Assembly (NCBI GenBank): GCA_028150825.1
Contig: JAOGIM010000001.1
Span: forward strand, 124,001 to 188,000
Direction: 5' to 3'
DNA: 64,000 nucleotides
Origin: Paracoccaceae bacterium
GTDB lineage: Bacteria; Pseudomonadota; Alphaproteobacteria; Rhodobacterales; Rhodobacteraceae
Part shown: positions 21,620-43,288 of the stretch, in pieces
Numbering within the stretch: position 1 is the stretch's first letter
How the letters are laid out: every line of letters begins with the position of its first letter
Made by a program: the position numbers and the translations under genes
Notes under the pieces: model-generated
What the model was told of the DNA's origin: nothing
Database searches by the model: none
The model's input: only the letters and a program-made list of their open reading frames with translations

Positions 21620-22147
21620 TCATAGACTTTCTGGTGGTAGAGAGCATCCAGGAAACAAGGGTTTACCATCAAATGCACGCTTGCCACAATTGTTAATTCT
21701 ATTCCACGAGTAGCCCAATCCATTGGGCAGGATTGTAACAACGCGATCAATACCATATACGATATTCTCTATGGCTAGAAACGAAACGGCCTCTCCTGCC
21801 TCAATCTTTGATCCAAGCTCTTTTGCTTTAAAACATTTAAACCAAGACGGGGCGTTCAAAGGCACGGCATCATCTATTGTTTTGTAAACACTCCCTAGCT
21901 CGACCGGCGATTTGGAGCTCTGGAAACAGGCCCGATAGCGAATTGGAGAGCTTTTAGAGTCAATCGCTTGAAAGTTTGTATAGGCAATCGGTTCCGCGAT
22001 ACTGTTCAATTTTTTAGTCAAAACCACATCGGAAGATCCATTTGGTACAACCGCATCATAAAAGGCATAGACCTGAAGATAATACATACCACCGCCAGCC
22101 AATACCCCACACACGACAATAAAGCTGGCTAGAAATTTACCCATCAT
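21620..22147 (-). CDS. DUF6446 family protein, between glyQ and glyS
   Basis: A 175-residue protein with an N-terminal membrane anchor or signal sequence ([27 protein letters not shown]) and a predicted periplasmic domain with several cysteines ([28 protein letters not shown]). Rhodobacterales keep a DUF6446 gene between the two glycyl-tRNA synthetase genes; its function is not known. The start overlaps the glyQ stop (ATGA) and its stop is one base from the glyS start, so all three are translated as one unit. The cysteines suggest disulfides. Confidence 0.8.
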
Positions 22148-23067
22148 TGAAGCTTTCCTCCAGCTTCCGTAAGGACAAAGGCATCAGCACATTTTTTGGC
22201 CAACGCGCGAACCCTACCGATGTAGGCCTGCCGCTCCGTAACCGAGATTACGCCACGCGCATCCAGGAGGTTAAACAAATGGCTGGCCTTGATACATTGA
22301 TCGTATGCCGGGTGTGACATAATGATCTTTTTCCCAGTCTTGGGATCGATTTGCTCTTGGTCAAGGATGCTATTACACTCTATTTCCGCATCTTCAAAAT
22401 GGCGTAACAACATTTCTGTATTGGCCACATCAAAATTCCAGCGCGCATATTCCTGCTCAGTCTGCAGAAAAATATCTCCATAAGTCAGCGGGATCAGAGT
22501 TTGAGGATTATTAAACGGCATATCCATGACGTGATCAATGCTCAAGACATACATCGCCAATCGCTCAAGCCCATAAGTCAGCTCGCCCGATACAGGGTGG
22601 CAGTCATGTCCACCGACCTGTTGAAAATAAGTAAATTGAGATACTTCCATCCCGTCACACCAAACTTCCCAGCCTAAACCCGCTGCGCCGAGCGTTGGGC
22701 TTTCCCAATCGTCTTCGACAAACCGTATGTCATGCAGTTCCATGTCGATACCAATCGCTTCGAGCGAACGTAGATAAAGCTCCTGCAAATCTGGCGGACT
22801 TGGCTTGATGAGCACCTGATATTGATAGTAGTGCTGTAACCTGTTCGGATTTTCACCGTACCGCCCGTCCGTTGGCCTGCGCGAAGGCTGAACATAGGCA
22901 GCCGCCCACGGTCTCGATCCCAGTGAGCGCAAGGTCGTTGCAGGATGAAACGTTCCGGCACCTACTTCCATGTCATAGGGTTGCAAAACAGCGCAGCCCT
23001 TTGAAGACCAATACGCTTGAAGCCGCAATATTATGTCTTGAAAAGATTTAGAAACGTCTACTGTCAT
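22144..23067 (-). CDS. glyQ: Glycine-tRNA ligase alpha subunit
   Basis: The catalytic alpha subunit of glycyl-tRNA synthetase, which activates glycine with ATP. The start at [20 protein letters not shown] gives 307 residues. Class II motifs are visible: [67 protein letters not shown] and [14 protein letters not shown]. It leads the unit glyQ-DUF6446-glyS, with ppdK and sleB following. The region upstream (23068-23293) is shared with the divergent pseudo-protease gene. Confidence 0.97.
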
Positions 23068-23293
23068 TTTTCTGCCTGCCACATGGAAAAGCCTGTGCCT
23101 CTCATTAGGCAAACAACGACCAAGGGTCAATCAATCCAGAGCAATGATTATAGCATTCGCGTCATATCCCAAAAGAAATCACACATATCACTGGCAAACT
23201 TCTTTGACGCACTATAAATAGCTTAACGAGGCGCGATGATTTTCATTGAATCCGGTGAGAGATTCTTCGAAACCCGAAAATTGGAGTTATAGT

Positions 23294-25051
23294 ATGTTTA
23301 AAAAATTATGGCTTTTTTGGTTTTGGATTATTTGTATACCATCACTGGCCGTTTCACAGTCACTTAACGTTTGGTTACAGATCGAAGCGCATCCAAGCGT
23401 GATCGAAGCAGAACAACAAGCGCAGTTTTATGGGGCAGCAATTGCGGATGTCAGTGCTTTTGCAATCAGTGGAGGATGGTATGCTGTAACCATTGGACCG
23501 CTGGATGAAAAAGATGCCGAAAGCCAACTTTTAAAATTACGTGCTGCAGGTGCAATACCGCTAGATAGTTTTATCTCGAGAGGCACAAATTTTGAGCAAA
23601 AGATCTGGCCAGTCGGATTTGAGACCAATGAAAGCGATATTACAACCCCGTCTGAAGAGACCACTGCTCCAACAAAACCAAGTGCGGTCACAGCTAAAAA
23701 CTCACTTATAAGGCTATCCTCAGGGGCTGATGAGACGATTGAGGAAGCCAGAGCCATCGAGGCAACGCTAACAAAAGATGAAAAAAAGCAGCTGCAAGTG
23801 GCATTAAAATGGGCCGGATATTATACCTCCTCCATCGATGGGGCCTTTGGGCCTGGAACACGGGCCGCAATGGGCGCTTGGCAGAAAGCTGAGAGCGTAG
23901 CCCCAACCAAAATTATGACTTCAAAGCAGCGAGACTTTTTACTGGCACAGTATAATGAAATACTGCGTTCGCTACGGCTGGAAACCATCTCGGATCTTGA
24001 AGCTGGTATCGCACTGAAAATCCCAATGAATATTGTAAAATTCCAGAAATATTCCCCCCCTTTAGTATATTTTGGATCCTTTACTGGTACGCAACACAGT
24101 GTCTATATGATTTCTCAGGAAGGCAGTACGGCGGATCTAAAGGCACTCTACGAGGCCCTTCAATCCCTGGACACAATTCCACAGACGGGCGAACGCAACC
24201 TTAAGGGTGATAGTTTTGAAATCAACGGACAAAACAACCAACTTTTTTCTTATGCAACTGCCTCTTTGAAAGGTGGCCAGATAAAAGGTTTTGTTCTCGT
24301 GTGGCCAGCAGATGATGCGGCGCAACATGAACGTCTTTTGACAGAAATGAAAAAAAGTTTTGAAACCTTCCGCGGCACGCTTGATCCGGATATGGGTGAT
24401 GGCCGCATCCAAACGTCAGATTTACTATTTGGGCTAGAAATCAGAAAGCCAGCATTTTCGCGGTCAGGTGTTTTTGTCACAGCAAAAGGCCATATTGTTA
24501 CGGATGCTCAAGGACTTGATATGTGTGATAGGATTACCATCGAAAACCACTTTGATGCTCAAATTATAGCGATAGATCCGAGCAGAACTCTAGCGATCAT
24601 CGCAACTAAACAAGCTGTTTCACCACCTGAAGTCGCGGAAATCTCGCTTTATAAACCGACTATAGGTGATAAAATAATTGCAGCCGGCTATTCTTACGAA
24701 GGAATCCTTGCGGCACCAAGTGTCCTTGTGGGTGAAGTCGATGATCTTAAGGCGCTTAATGGGAATACTGATTTCATGCGGCTCAATATTGCGATGATGA
24801 CGGGGGATGTCGGTGGACCAGTGTTGAATAAGTTCGGTACTCTCAGTGGAATTATGACGGCTGATCGCACCGCAGGCAGAAGCTTACCGAAAAAAGTACA
24901 CCACGCAATCAAAGCCAAAACCGTAGTGTCGCTCATGAACGAAGTTGGCCAATTTGTAACTTATAAGAAATTACAGCAATCGGTGAAAAAAATACTGATC
25001 GAACGTGACGCCCGAAATATAACAGGTTTAGTAAGCTGCTGGAAAGACTAA
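23294..25051 (+). CDS. Secreted SPOR-like / peptidoglycan-binding / inactive trypsin-like protein
   Basis: A 585-residue exported protein. A signal peptide (MFKKLWLFWFWIICIPSLAV) is followed by a SPOR-like repeat (about residues 23-105, ISGGWYAVTIGPLDEKDAES), a peptidoglycan_binding_1 domain (about 155-220, LKWAGYYTSSIDGAFGPGTRAAMGAWQ), and a C-terminal trypsin/HtrA-like domain (about 395-560). All three catalytic positions are changed: the histidine motif reads VTDAQGL, not TNNHVI; the aspartate site reads PSRTLAII; and the serine site reads GDVGGP, not GNSGGP. It is thus likely a pseudo-protease that binds cell wall. The ATG at 23294 has a GGAG ribosome binding site; the track start is 16 codons upstream. 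Confidence 0.75.
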   Translation: MFKKLWLFWFWIICIPSLAVSQSLNVWLQIEAHPSVIEAEQQAQFYGAAIADVSAFAISGGWYAVTIGPLDEKDAESQLLKLRAAGAIPLDSFISRGTNFEQKIWPVGFETNESDITTPSEETTAPTKPSAVTAKNSLIRLSSGADETIEEARAIEATLTKDEKKQLQVALKWAGYYTSSIDGAFGPGTRAAMGAWQKAESVAPTKIMTSKQRDFLLAQYNEILRSLRLETISDLEAGIALKIPMNIVKFQKYSPPLVYFGSFTGTQHSVYMISQEGSTADLKALYEALQSLDTIPQTGERNLKGDSFEINGQNNQLFSYATASLKGGQIKGFVLVWPADDAAQHERLLTEMKKSFETFRGTLDPDMGDGRIQTSDLLFGLEIRKPAFSRSGVFVTAKGHIVTDAQGLDMCDRITIENHFDAQIIAIDPSRTLAIIATKQAVSPPEVAEISLYKPTIGDKIIAAGYSYEGILAAPSVLVGEVDDLKALNGNTDFMRLNIAMMTGDVGGPVLNKFGTLSGIMTADRTAGRSLPKKVHHAIKAKTVVSLMNEVGQFVTYKKLQQSVKKILIERDARNITGLVSCWKD

Positions 25052-25073: not shown

Positions 25074-26629
25074 TTAAATAAGAGTTCGAGCCTTGGCTGA
25101 AAATGCTTCGATTAGACCATTTTGTAAGCTGCTACGTGTTTCAGGATGACGCTCCAATGCGCCGTAAGTTTTTGCCAATGCGTAAAAGTCAGAATTCAAT
25201 GCCTGAACCACATTCGGTGCAATTTGCGCTGCAATCATGCTGTACTCAATAGCTTTTAATTTCTGGTTGTCCCACAGCAAAATTGGCAAGTTAAGTCCTA
25301 ATTCCACAGTGACCCCAAGCTCAGACAGCGAATATTAGAAGCCATAATCACCAGTAATAGCAAGTATTGGCAAGCCAAGCCTTGGCACATTTCCCCCGAT
25401 CGCGGCCGGCAAAGCATAGCCCAGCGTTCCAAAGCCAAGAGGATGATGCCAATGTCCCGGACGCGGCATATCCCAAATTTCTTTCGCCAGATAAGCAAAT
25501 TGGGTCATATCAAAGTATATCGTTGCCTCTTTAGGCATGACGTCCTGCAGAGCTAGAAAAATCTTAGCAACTCCAAGAAACTCAGCTTCAGCCTGTGACC
25601 ACCAAAGTTTGCGATCATTGGCAATGGCGTCGTATGCCCATAAACAGGGTTGGGCCTGGTCGGGTAACCGTTTGACTAATTTGGGGACGAAATCTTCTGC
25701 ACGCACCAAAATTCGCAAATCTGCACGATGATGGTCACTCAGCGCTTCCGGATCGACATCGACTCGCACCATTGGTGCTTTATGGCCCAGTTCGCACCAC
25801 CAAATATCAACTTCGCCTAACTCGGAGCCAATAACAACCACCAGATCAGCCTTAGCAATTGTTCAAGGTGACCCTGGCCGCGCCAAAGCAGAGCCCATAT
25901 ATTTCGCACGATTTCCCTCAATTAACCCACGCCCACAAAAAGTAGTGAAAAACGCAGCACCACTCCGTCGAACCAATTCTGTAATATCTGTTTTGATTGC
26001 ACCGCCACCCAAGATAAAAAGTGACTGACGCGCGTCGCACAACATTTCTGCCGCGCGCTCAATCCCCTTAGGATCGTTAAGAGCGTGTCAAACATTTGGA
26101 CGTGGGGTCGGGGAACTCGGGGACATGTGCCTCAAGTTGAAAAATGGAAACCTGAATATGTTTGGGGCGTGCCCGATTTGCTGCAAATTCTTCAAAGGCT
26201 TGATGCAAAAGCCCATAGGCGGCCTGCGCACTATTAGCTGTCAATGACCATTCACATACCTCATCAGCAGCACCCTCTTGATCCAGCATCTGATGTAGTT
26301 GCCCTCGATGCGCTGCGACCTCGTCTAAACAGGATGAGATGACAAGCATTGGCACTCTGTCTGAATATGCCTGCCCCATTGGTGTCATGATATTACAAAG
26401 ATAAGGCACAGTGATCACATAAGCTACGCCCAGCTAGCACTCGCTCTGGCATAGCCGTCCACCATAAAGCCGGCACCTTGTTCACGGCGCGCCAGAACAT
26501 GAGTCAGGCCAGCCTTTTCAATACCGCGATAAAGCTCTTGATTGTAGACACCGGGAATACCAAAATAACTCTGATATAAGGGCTTTTTAAAAAATGCGAA
26601 ATTTGCGCCCCAAGTGTACGGCTTGTCAT
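25074..26629 (-). pseudogene. TPP-dependent enzyme pseudogene (acetolactate synthase-like)
   Basis: A thiamine-diphosphate enzyme broken into at least four frames. The start is readable (ATG at 26629, MTSRTLGAQISHFL ... YFGIPGVYNQELYRGIE, then REQGAGFMVDGYARA) up to a stop in SASWA. The middle pieces at 26418-26077 (PMGQAYSDRVPMLVISSCLDE) and 26045-25863 follow. The C-terminal TPP-binding part at 25841-25335 ends in GYALPAAIGGN and GDYGF, where active enzymes have GDGGF. The last piece is 25307-25074. The start overlaps the trkH stop (TGATATG), so it was once co-transcribed with trkH. Substrate is unknown; relatives include acetolactate synthase and guanidino-oxopentanoate decarboxylase. Confidence 0.85.
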
Positions 26630-26630
26630 A

Positions 26631-28079
26631 TCAAGTTCTCCAAAATTGGATTGTTAAAATAGCATATACAGCCAATAGTTCGAGCCGACCGATTAACATA
26701 GCTGCTGATAAAATCCATTTTGCCAAGTCACTTAAACCGGCATAATTCCCCGATGGCCCAATTTGATCACCAAGGCCGGGACCAATATTGCCAAGCGCAG
26801 AGGCCGACGCCGAGATAGAGGTGATCAGATCAAGCCCTGTCATTGCTAGCAAGATCGCAACAATGCACAAGGTCACCATGAAGAAGATAAAAAATGACAT
26901 CACCGAGCTGAGAACATCATTATCAATGGCACGTCCGTCATATCTAGGAATAAAAATGCCATTAGGGGATCGGATCTTTTTGAGCTGAGCGCTCACAGAG
27001 GCATAAACAAGCTGGTAGCGAAATATCTTCACCGAACAGGCTGTTGACCCGGCGCAACCACCAATGAGGCCGATAAAAAAGAACATCGTGATCAAAAATC
27101 CACCCCATTGGCCATAATCTGCACTAGAATACCCCGTTCCCGAGATAATCGACGTAATATTGAATAGAGCTTTGCGAAAGGCTGTTTCACCATCAAAGCC
27201 AAGGGATGCATAAACAACCAGCGTCGTCACCAAAGCCAAAATTAAAACAACCGTTACAAATGTTTTAACTTGCACATCTTTGAAAAGGGCCAACTGGTTT
27301 CCATTCACCAACTGAACATATCTGACGAACGGCAATGACGCTAGTATCATAAAGATAACGCAGACATATTCTGCACCGGCATCAAACGCACCAAAGGAGG
27401 CATCATAATTTGAAAATCCACCGGTAGCCACAGTGGTCATAGCATGAACCGTCGCATCAAAAGCAGATAGACCTACAGAAAAGTAGGCCAATATACAAAC
27501 CATCGTAACAGCTAAATAAATAACAGAAATTTGGATAGCAATTGTCGTAGCTTTTGGTAGGATCTTGCCAAGGGTATCGAACGCTTCAGCTTTGAAAATC
27601 TGCATTCCGCCCACACGAAGCTCAGGGAGAAAAACCATTGCCACAACAATGATGCCAATGCCGCCAAACCACTGTAAAATGCCACGCCAAAGCAGAAGTC
27701 CTTTGGGCATTATGTCAAGCTCTGTAAATACAGTCGCACCTGTCGTGGTCAAACCAGACATAGCCTCAAAAAATGCATCTACATAACGCGCTTCTGTTGA
27801 ACCGAACATAAAAGGCAACGCCCCAAATAGCGGTAGCGCCAACCAGACACCCGTTGTTAGGAGGAATGTTTGCTGAATGGTCAGTCCCTCTTTGGCGTCG
27901 TTAGAACAGGCCAAGGCGAGTAAAACGCCAAATATGCCTGTGACGAGGGAGCTTTGAACAAACACACGCCATTCGCCTCGACCTTCGGCAAGGTCAACAA
28001 GAAACGGCACAATCATTGCGACGCCCAAAAGCGTCAGCAAAATACCGATCACATATCCCACGGGCCTAAAGTCTACCAT
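26631..28079 (-). CDS. trkH: Trk-type potassium uptake membrane protein
   Basis: TrkH is the ion-conducting inner-membrane subunit of the Trk potassium uptake system. It has 482 residues with many hydrophobic segments and the four selectivity-filter P-loops in order: LTTTGATVF, TVATGGFSN, ISGTGYSS and SALGNIGPG. The regulatory NAD-binding subunit TrkA, which is needed for function, is not in the window. The gene follows folE2 by about 50 bases on the same strand, and its stop overlaps the start of the decayed TPP enzyme. Confidence 0.95.
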   Translation of the reverse strand: MVDFRPVGYVIGILLTLLGVAMIVPFLVDLAEGRGEWRVFVQSSLVTGIFGVLLALACSNDAKEGLTIQQTFLLTTGVWLALPLFGALPFMFGSTEARYVDAFFEAMSGLTTTGATVFTELDIMPKGLLLWRGILQWFGGIGIIVVAMVFLPELRVGGMQIFKAEAFDTLGKILPKATTIAIQISVIYLAVTMVCILAYFSVGLSAFDATVHAMTTVATGGFSNYDASFGAFDAGAEYVCVIFMILASLPFVRYVQLVNGNQLALFKDVQVKTFVTVVLILALVTTLVVYASLGFDGETAFRKALFNITSIISGTGYSSADYGQWGGFLITMFFFIGLIGGCAGSTACSVKIFRYQLVYASVSAQLKKIRSPNGIFIPRYDGRAIDNDVLSSVMSFFIFFMVTLCIVAILLAMTGLDLITSISASASALGNIGPGLGDQIGPSGNYAGLSDLAKWILSAAMLIGRLELLAVYAILTIQFWRT

Positions 28080-41821: not shown

Positions 41822-43288
41822 CTACTCTAACTCTAGGACCACAAATCTGGGTTGGCCATCACGCCGTACCAACAATAGAATTGAGCCGCGCCCACCTTCT
41901 TTTGTAGCCTCAACCTGCGCTTTGAAATCTTCCAAATTGGCAATGTTTGTCTGCCCTGCATCTGTTATAATATCACCAGGACGTACACCTTTTTCAAAAG
42001 CATCGGATGATTCATCCACTTCTAAAACATAAAGCCCTACTGCGGACTCTGGGAGAGATTTCTCGTCCCTTAAAGCGTCATCTATTTTCACAAGTGAGAG
42101 GCCTAAAATGCCCTCGGGTTCAACTGGCTTACTGTTAACCTGATTTGTGTTCACGGGACGCTGTCCTAACAGCACATCAAATGTCTGTCGCTTTCCATTC
42201 CGTAAAACAACTACTTTGACCGTTTCACCGACTGCCGCACGACCGACCATACGGACTAATTCGCCAGCATTTTCAACAGCCTCACCGTTAAACAAAACAA
42301 TAATATCTCTTGTTTCTAGGCCTGCATTTAACGCAGGGCCACTACCAAACACTTCTGATATGATGGCGCCTGACGAATCTTCTAGATCAAGAGTCTTTGC
42401 AATTTCTTCTGTCACCGGGCCGATAGACACACCCAGCCAACCGCGCCTTACTTCACCAAATTGACGCAATTGCTCAACTATGGGCGCGACAACGTTTGCC
42501 GACATAGAAAATCCAATCCCAATAGAGCCTCCATTAGGCGATAGAATTGCAGTATTTACACCGATCACCTGCCCATTCATATTAAACAAAGGCCCACCCG
42601 AATTACCTCGGTTGATCGCGGCATCCGTCTGAATATAGTCATCATAATTTCCAGAAAGCTCTCGATTGCGGGCAGAAATAATTCCAGCAGAGACTGAAAA
42701 CCCCTGTCCCAAAGGATTTCCGATTGCCATAACCCAATCGCCAACACGCGCAGTATCACTATTTGCGAATTTGACAAAATCCAGAGGCTTATCAACATCC
42801 AGTTTCAATAGAGCGATATCAATATTTTTGTCCACACCTATAACAGTCGCAGCATGCTCTGCACCATTTGGAAATTCGACCATGATCTCATCGGCACCCT
42901 CAATCACATGATTGTTGGTGACCACAAATCCATCTTCAGATACGACAAAGCCAGAGCCCAGCGCAGAGGTATTTCGTGGACCTCTTCTATCAGGGTTTTG
43001 ATCGTTGAAGTCCCTGAACAAGTCTTCAAACGGGCTCCCTTCTGGAACAACCCCTTTCGGAGCCAAGCTCTTTGCAACTTTTGTCGTTGTAGTGATATTG
43101 ACCACGGCCGGGCTCATCCGTTCGACTAAATCTGCAAAACTATCAGGCGCTGAGCGCACCACAGTTGCTAAACTCTGAAATATCAGAACAGCGAGCGCCA
43201 ATAATGCCAGTTGCAGTATCTTTTGAGCAGCCATATGACTATTTGGTGCATTAGATGACGCTATTTTTGGCAAACGCTGTTCGTACAT
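41822..43288 (-). CDS. degP: Periplasmic serine protease DegP/HtrA family
   Basis: A periplasmic quality-control protease with 488 residues. A hydrophobic export segment (ILQLALLALAVLIFQSLATVV) is preceded by about 20 extra residues. The catalytic triad is intact: TNNHVI (His), NIDIALLKL (Asp) and GNSGGPLF (Ser). Two PDZ domains follow (GWLGVSIGPVTEEIAK... and GLSLVKIDDALR ... GVRPGDIITDAGQ). I keep the track start because CAGGAG lies upstream; an internal ATG at 43234 lacks a ribosome binding site. It follows hflK-hflC-DUF2065, the usual alphaproteobacterial order, after a 238-base gap. Confidence 0.95.
   Translation of the reverse strand: MYEQRLPKIASSNAPNSHMAAQKILQLALLALAVLIFQSLATVVRSAPDSFADLVERMSPAVVNITTTTKVAKSLAPKGVVPEGSPFEDLFRDFNDQNPDRRGPRNTSALGSGFVVSEDGFVVTNNHVIEGADEIMVEFPNGAEHAATVIGVDKNIDIALLKLDVDKPLDFVKFANSDTARVGDWVMAIGNPLGQGFSVSAGIISARNRELSGNYDDYIQTDAAINRGNSGGPLFNMNGQVIGVNTAILSPNGGSIGIGFSMSANVVAPIVEQLRQFGEVRRGWLGVSIGPVTEEIAKTLDLEDSSGAIISEVFGSGPALNAGLETRDIIVLFNGEAVENAGELVRMVGRAAVGETVKVVVLRNGKRQTFDVLLGQRPVNTNQVNSKPVEPEGILGLSLVKIDDALRDEKSLPESAVGLYVLEVDESSDAFEKGVRPGDIITDAGQTNIANLEDFKAQVEATKEGGRGSILLLVRRDGQPRFVVLELE

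Follow-up and report, generated by a model that had tools for sequence, protein, structure and literature searches.

MamO, a repurposed HtrA-fold protease encoded in the magnetosome island of Magnetospirillum, is needed for MamE-dependent proteolysis without a triad of its own: Thr replaces the catalytic Ser, the other catalytic residues are in place, and the protein binds metal through a di-histidine site and carries a TauE domain (PMC4794232). The protein described here resembles MamO in being an alphaproteobacterial protein of the HtrA/trypsin fold that appears to have lost catalysis and been kept as a pseudoprotease, but its family lacks all three catalytic residues and any conserved His, and its partner domains are wall-binding. 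Its best relatives of solved structure are DegS, DegQ and DegP (HtrA, S1C), with which it shares motifs around the former active site, whereas it has none of the His, Asp and Ser residues, yields no PDZ domain in a Pfam search at E up to 1, and adds two cysteines (C411 and C582) and a wall-binding N-terminus. A third point of reference is DipM, a wall-bound inactive LytM regulator of autolysins in an alphaproteobacterium (PMC10336132). DipM and the LytM factors are likewise soluble periplasmic proteins that bind the wall, carry a dead enzyme domain and are used as regulators; however, the LytM endopeptidase fold is unrelated, targeting is by LysM rather than SPOR, and the partners are known, making this a functional analogy only. 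SPOR domains of other proteins are known to bind denuded septal glycan (e.g., PMC6895207). The literature searched yielded nothing on the present pseudoprotease family.

The gene lies in a window of 64,000 nucleotides (the whole stretch of DNA that was analyzed), and the protein it encodes is laid out as follows.

23294..25051, + strand: coding sequence of the pseudoprotease, 585 residues, ATG at 23294; about 340 of the 397 family genomes searched carry it
23294..23356, + strand: Sec signal peptide, residues 1-21, MFKKLWLFWFWIICIPSLAVS followed by Q, read from the sequence with a putative cleavage site
23372..23548, + strand: SPOR domain, residues 27-85 (Pfam PF05036, 21.3 bits, E 3.4e-4)
23783..23935, + strand: PG_binding_1 domain, residues 164-214 (Pfam PF01471, 36.6 bits, E 5e-9)
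23963..24415, + strand: undescribed middle domain of ~150 residues, residues 224-374, lying after PG_binding_1 and before Trypsin_2
24464..24853, + strand: Trypsin_2/HtrA-like domain without triad, residues 391-520 (Pfam PF13365, 40 bits, E 8e-10; DegS and DegQ alignments)

A ribosome-binding motif (GGAG, 23283-23286) precedes the ATG, and a family consensus, AxAQ, coincides with the putative position of signal-peptide cleavage. The SPOR, PG_binding_1 and Trypsin_2 matches all exceed the curated Pfam cut-offs, SPOR barely so (the cut-off being 21 bits), and the same domains return in 27-33 of 33 orthologues, with SPOR matched by Pfam in 27 and PG_binding_1 in all 33. These matches bear out the order of signal peptide, SPOR, peptidoglycan-binding and HtrA/trypsin-like domains given in a preliminary description of this DNA. 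That description was also upheld in its triad loss and selected scaffold, as detailed below, but its layout omitted the middle domain and the invariant C411/C582. Approximately 65 residues remain C-terminal of the trypsin domain, and the Pfam search found no TauE domain in the window protein. Structural modeling with AF2 gave low confidence throughout, with an unusable pLDDT of 34 for the full-length protein with a two-row alignment, and a pLDDT of 48 and pTM of 0.49 for the trypsin domain aligned with one homolog (L004) and DegP fragments from the window. In a Foldseek search the latter, weak model matched DegS at a TM score of about 0.5, a result that is partly circular given the DegP rows in the alignment, and its matches included MamO (5hm9). 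We take the model as pointing to an HtrA fold only, at a coarse level.

The positions of the catalytic triad were assigned from a phmmer alignment of the window protein to solved DegS, in which the DegS segments TNKHV (His), SLTDLAV (Asp) and HGNSGGA (Ser) align with TDAQG, PSRTLAI and TGDVGGP, respectively. The residues at issue are listed below with their state in 165 homologues, each with a full-length profile score of 150 bits or more; they came mainly from the two ends of the family's ranked matches, the best and the weakest.

24509..24511, + strand: Q406, position of the former catalytic His; Glu or Asp in 108 of 165
24524..24526, + strand: C411; Cys in 165 of 165
24587..24589, + strand: T432, position of the former catalytic Asp; Gly in 144 of 165
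24779..24781, + strand: R496, the counterpart of DegS Q191 in the alignment; 151 of 165 have Arg, and 84% of active relatives have Gln
24806..24808, + strand: D505; Asp or Glu in 160 of 165, Asn in active relatives
24809..24811, + strand: V506, position of the former catalytic Ser; Ala or Val in 128 of 165
25037..25039, + strand: C582 of the C-terminal SCW motif; Cys in 164 of 165, the remaining one being truncated

All three catalytic positions are replaced in the window protein, as had been proposed, and the triad is missing in 164 of the 165 homologues, the sole intact one being L087. Since the domains recur across the orthologues and the triad is non-catalytic in 164 of 165, chance is ruled out for the observed layout and triad loss. 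The His position is occupied by Glu (79), Asp (29), Ala (22), Gln (16) and others, and the Ser position mostly by Ala (98), Val (30) and Thr (12). Ser itself occurs at the nucleophile position in 7 of the 165, one of them the intact L087, and this, together with retention of the HtrA fold, is what could be said for a protein that still cuts through a displaced nucleophile or an unrecognized triad. We regard that as very improbable, given that all but one of the 165 lack His and no column offers a substitute, that Gly stands at the Asp position of the great majority, and that none of the 164 triad-less homologues retains two of the three residues. The window protein is thus presumed, from its sequence, to be catalytically inactive.

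The prevalence of acidic residues at 406 and 505 raises the alternative that the former active site was rebuilt as a site for a small ligand or cation, comparable to metal binding by MamO. The window protein itself, however, has Gln at 406, and the dead domain has no His-rich column, meaning that a di-histidine site of the MamO type is absent; since His never exceeds 25% of members in any column, the alignments do not favor metal binding in the manner of MamO, and the rebuilt-site explanation as a whole seems to us improbable.

Around the lost triad the scaffold persists. GD-x-GGP and GYSY are kept in the dead domain, and G392, T403, C411, A434, G465, G507, G515, C582 and W583 are common to the dead domain and active relatives. 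All 44 of the subfamily's active relatives likewise have C411, although Cys at this position was among the criteria by which they were selected, and C411 and C582 are probably joined by a disulfide. Beside the dead nucleophile the clade has a signature of its own, Asn to Asp/Glu at 505 and Gln to Arg at 496, both nearly fixed, with the exceptions at 496 being chiefly divergent members; an acidic residue at 406 is a further, frequent feature of the clade. Hypothetically, R496 and D505 form a salt bridge or lock; the literature searched held no source on the role of DegS Q191.

The 397 genomes of the family, nearly all of different genera, were searched for full-length strong matches, with weak matches re-searched by profile and the figure of about 340 counted from the table. 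The neighboring genes on the left of the window gene mark the orthologous locus.

22144..23067, - strand: glyQ, divergent neighbor, conserved beside the gene in 19 of 20 neighborhoods
21620..22147, - strand: DUF6446 gene between glyQ and glyS (Pfam PF20044, 164 bits)

The head-to-head arrangement with glyQ in 19 of 20 neighborhoods extends to the most divergent members (L194-L200), and the other flank is often trkH and folE2, as identified from the window's open reading frames. The product of the DUF6446 gene has a signal-like N-terminus, and the gene sits between glyQ and glyS in most neighborhoods. A promoter scan of the divergent region gave a score not above that of shuffled sequences, and glyQ, glyS and the DUF6446 gene give no hint as to the function of the pseudoprotease. 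Among viral contigs there were PG_binding matches only; among plasmids there was one full-length match, in Pseudorhodobacter turbinis (1.6-Mb replicon, no annotation), which agrees with a placement of the window in Rhodobacteraceae. No tie could be made between the pseudoprotease gene and Dshi_0924, a vesicle-abundant SPOR protein of D. shibae. One glyQ-linked member (L088/L194, G030:C281) has unusually eroded trypsin motifs, with TDGGAG in place of GD-x-GGP, and its N-terminal domains are still present.

The preliminary description would have had to contend with any orthologue that kept its triad, and the one intact protein among the 165, L087 (L193:5007-5915 region, G163:C166), is also the single exception to the glyQ synteny, lying on a stretch of contig that lacks glyQ. 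Its domains are SPOR, PG-binding, middle and trypsin, its His-Asp-Ser is intact, it has Gln at 496 and Asn at 505 as in active enzymes, and it clusters with other active paralogs of the family at 94% SH-aLRT. As it is off the glyQ locus and grouped with active proteases, L087 is better read as a paralog than as an orthologue. It belongs with the alphaproteobacterial C...CW trypsin-like proteases (L056, L042, L087), which share the domain with C411, C582 and W583, and in the case of L087 the whole architecture, but differ from the pseudoprotease in their intact His-Asp-Ser, Asn at 505 and Gln at 496. In another genome (L176, G178:C1:1174700-1178700) a dead full-length protein was found together with an active paralog that has SPOR/PG-binding-like N-terminal segments.

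When the profile search was extended to the class, no full-length relative turned up outside the family; the matches there were to the trypsin part only (residues about 384-584), within other proteins, and these have C411, C582 and W583 together with TNHHV, DLAL and GNSGGP, i.e., an intact triad. The window's own genome also encodes an intact-triad protein of the subfamily (L042, contig 43), and the window encodes a standard DegP (41822-43288, - strand). For 81 trypsin domains, a maximum-likelihood tree built without the three triad columns requires the triad state to change just once. The change falls on a branch (100 bootstrap, 98 SH-aLRT) with the dead clade on one side and 42 intact relatives on the other, so that one loss suffices. 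(One relative, L178_9, was scored as intact; a deletion shifts its Asp by one column, and the motif DGADLA shows the Asp.) The tree itself infers no root, and activity is taken as the ancestral state because the wider subfamily and DegP have intact triads. Insofar as the sequences record it, the comparison shows a single loss of the triad, which would predate the radiation of this Rhodobacteraceae-like family or fall early in it.

This family-wide pattern refutes, to our minds virtually completely, the explanation that the window gene reflects local decay or a sequencing artefact. The assembly is indeed fragmented (110 contigs, 62.7% complete) and the adjoining gene at 25101-26640 (- strand) is frameshifted, but the pseudoprotease reading frame is intact, like replacements occur in sister genomes (e.g., L035, 78% identical) as well as throughout the family, and dN/dS is well below 1. 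The adjoining gene, for a thiamine-pyrophosphate enzyme, is split over several frames through either pseudogenization or assembly errors; in a sister genome (G399, L182) it is one open frame of 535 residues at the same place.

Comparison of the window protein with L035 gave a dN/dS of 0.16 for the whole and 0.11 for the trypsin domain, and comparison with L004 gave 0.16 for the trypsin domain; the range for the dead domain (0.11-0.16) is comparable to that for the PG_binding domain (0.09-0.14). These ratios show, as far as substitution patterns can, that the dead trypsin domain evolves under purifying selection. The view that its scaffold is selected is accordingly sustained by the family-wide loss, the conserved GD-x-GGP and GYSY and the low dN/dS. 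Such strong conservation suggests that the domain now serves in binding or regulation and not as an enzyme. It is conceivable that the domain is instead a structural remnant, a folded cap or spacer without a ligand of its own, with the wall-binding and middle domains doing the work. In keeping with this, the PG-binding and middle domains are conserved at least as well as the trypsin domain (they average 0.55 and 0.41 identity to the window protein, the trypsin domain 0.35), and a few members, such as L088, have badly eroded trypsin motifs. The low dN/dS of the trypsin domain speaks against it, as do the clade-specific, fixed D/E505 and R496 near the former active site, which would be superfluous in a mere spacer, and we therefore consider a remnant unlikely.

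The middle domain is marked by the motifs IKGFxLVWP, PPxxxF and LISQxG and has a mean column identity of 63% in 26 orthologues. It had no match in the PDB (E up to 10) or in Pfam, and among 289 genomes searched across the class it was confined to the four members of this family; a weaker version is fused to intact proteases in L095 and L087. The specific function of the protein may lie in this domain.

Together these observations lead us to favor, as probable, a secreted pseudoprotease anchored to peptidoglycan, descended from an HtrA-fold protease through a single loss of the triad, and acting as a cleft-binding adaptor or regulator that does not cut. SPOR and PG_binding_1 would tether the secreted protein to peptidoglycan, with SPOR probably enriching it at the septum, and the former active-site cleft, fixed in a non-catalytic state, would bind a peptide or protein partner. 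Tethered to the wall in this way, the protein may act on an envelope enzyme or client as its adaptor or regulator, as MamO does for MamE or inactive LytM factors do for amidases, and candidate partners would be DegP or a non-protease. An obligate active mate from the same subfamily, in a fixed pair like MamO and MamE, was also considered. Such a dedicated partner is unlikely because most of the carrier genomes examined had no second trypsin match of the subfamily at the threshold used.

A pseudoprotease clade of the HtrA fold that is ancient and family-wide is well supported by these data. As the trypsin match exceeds the Pfam cut-off, automatic annotation would tend to name these proteins trypsin-like peptidases across hundreds of genera, a label that would clash with the lost catalytic residues. 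Few bacterial HtrA-fold pseudoproteases have a described function, MamO being the one found in the literature searched. A widespread clade unconnected with magnetosomes, with an intact homolog of the same architecture, allows a direct test of the change from protease to non-catalytic factor, for which L087, judged from its motifs, would be a natural active counterpart to the dead clade. More tentatively, it is possible, though we would not presume it, that a glyQ-linked, septum-targeted pseudoprotease monitors or regulates wall remodeling or proteolysis in the envelope through its former cleft and a new family-specific domain, in which case a protease would have switched to a wall-bound regulator once and been carried through hundreds of genera. 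The finding points to an uncharacterized envelope protein in a major bacterial lineage.
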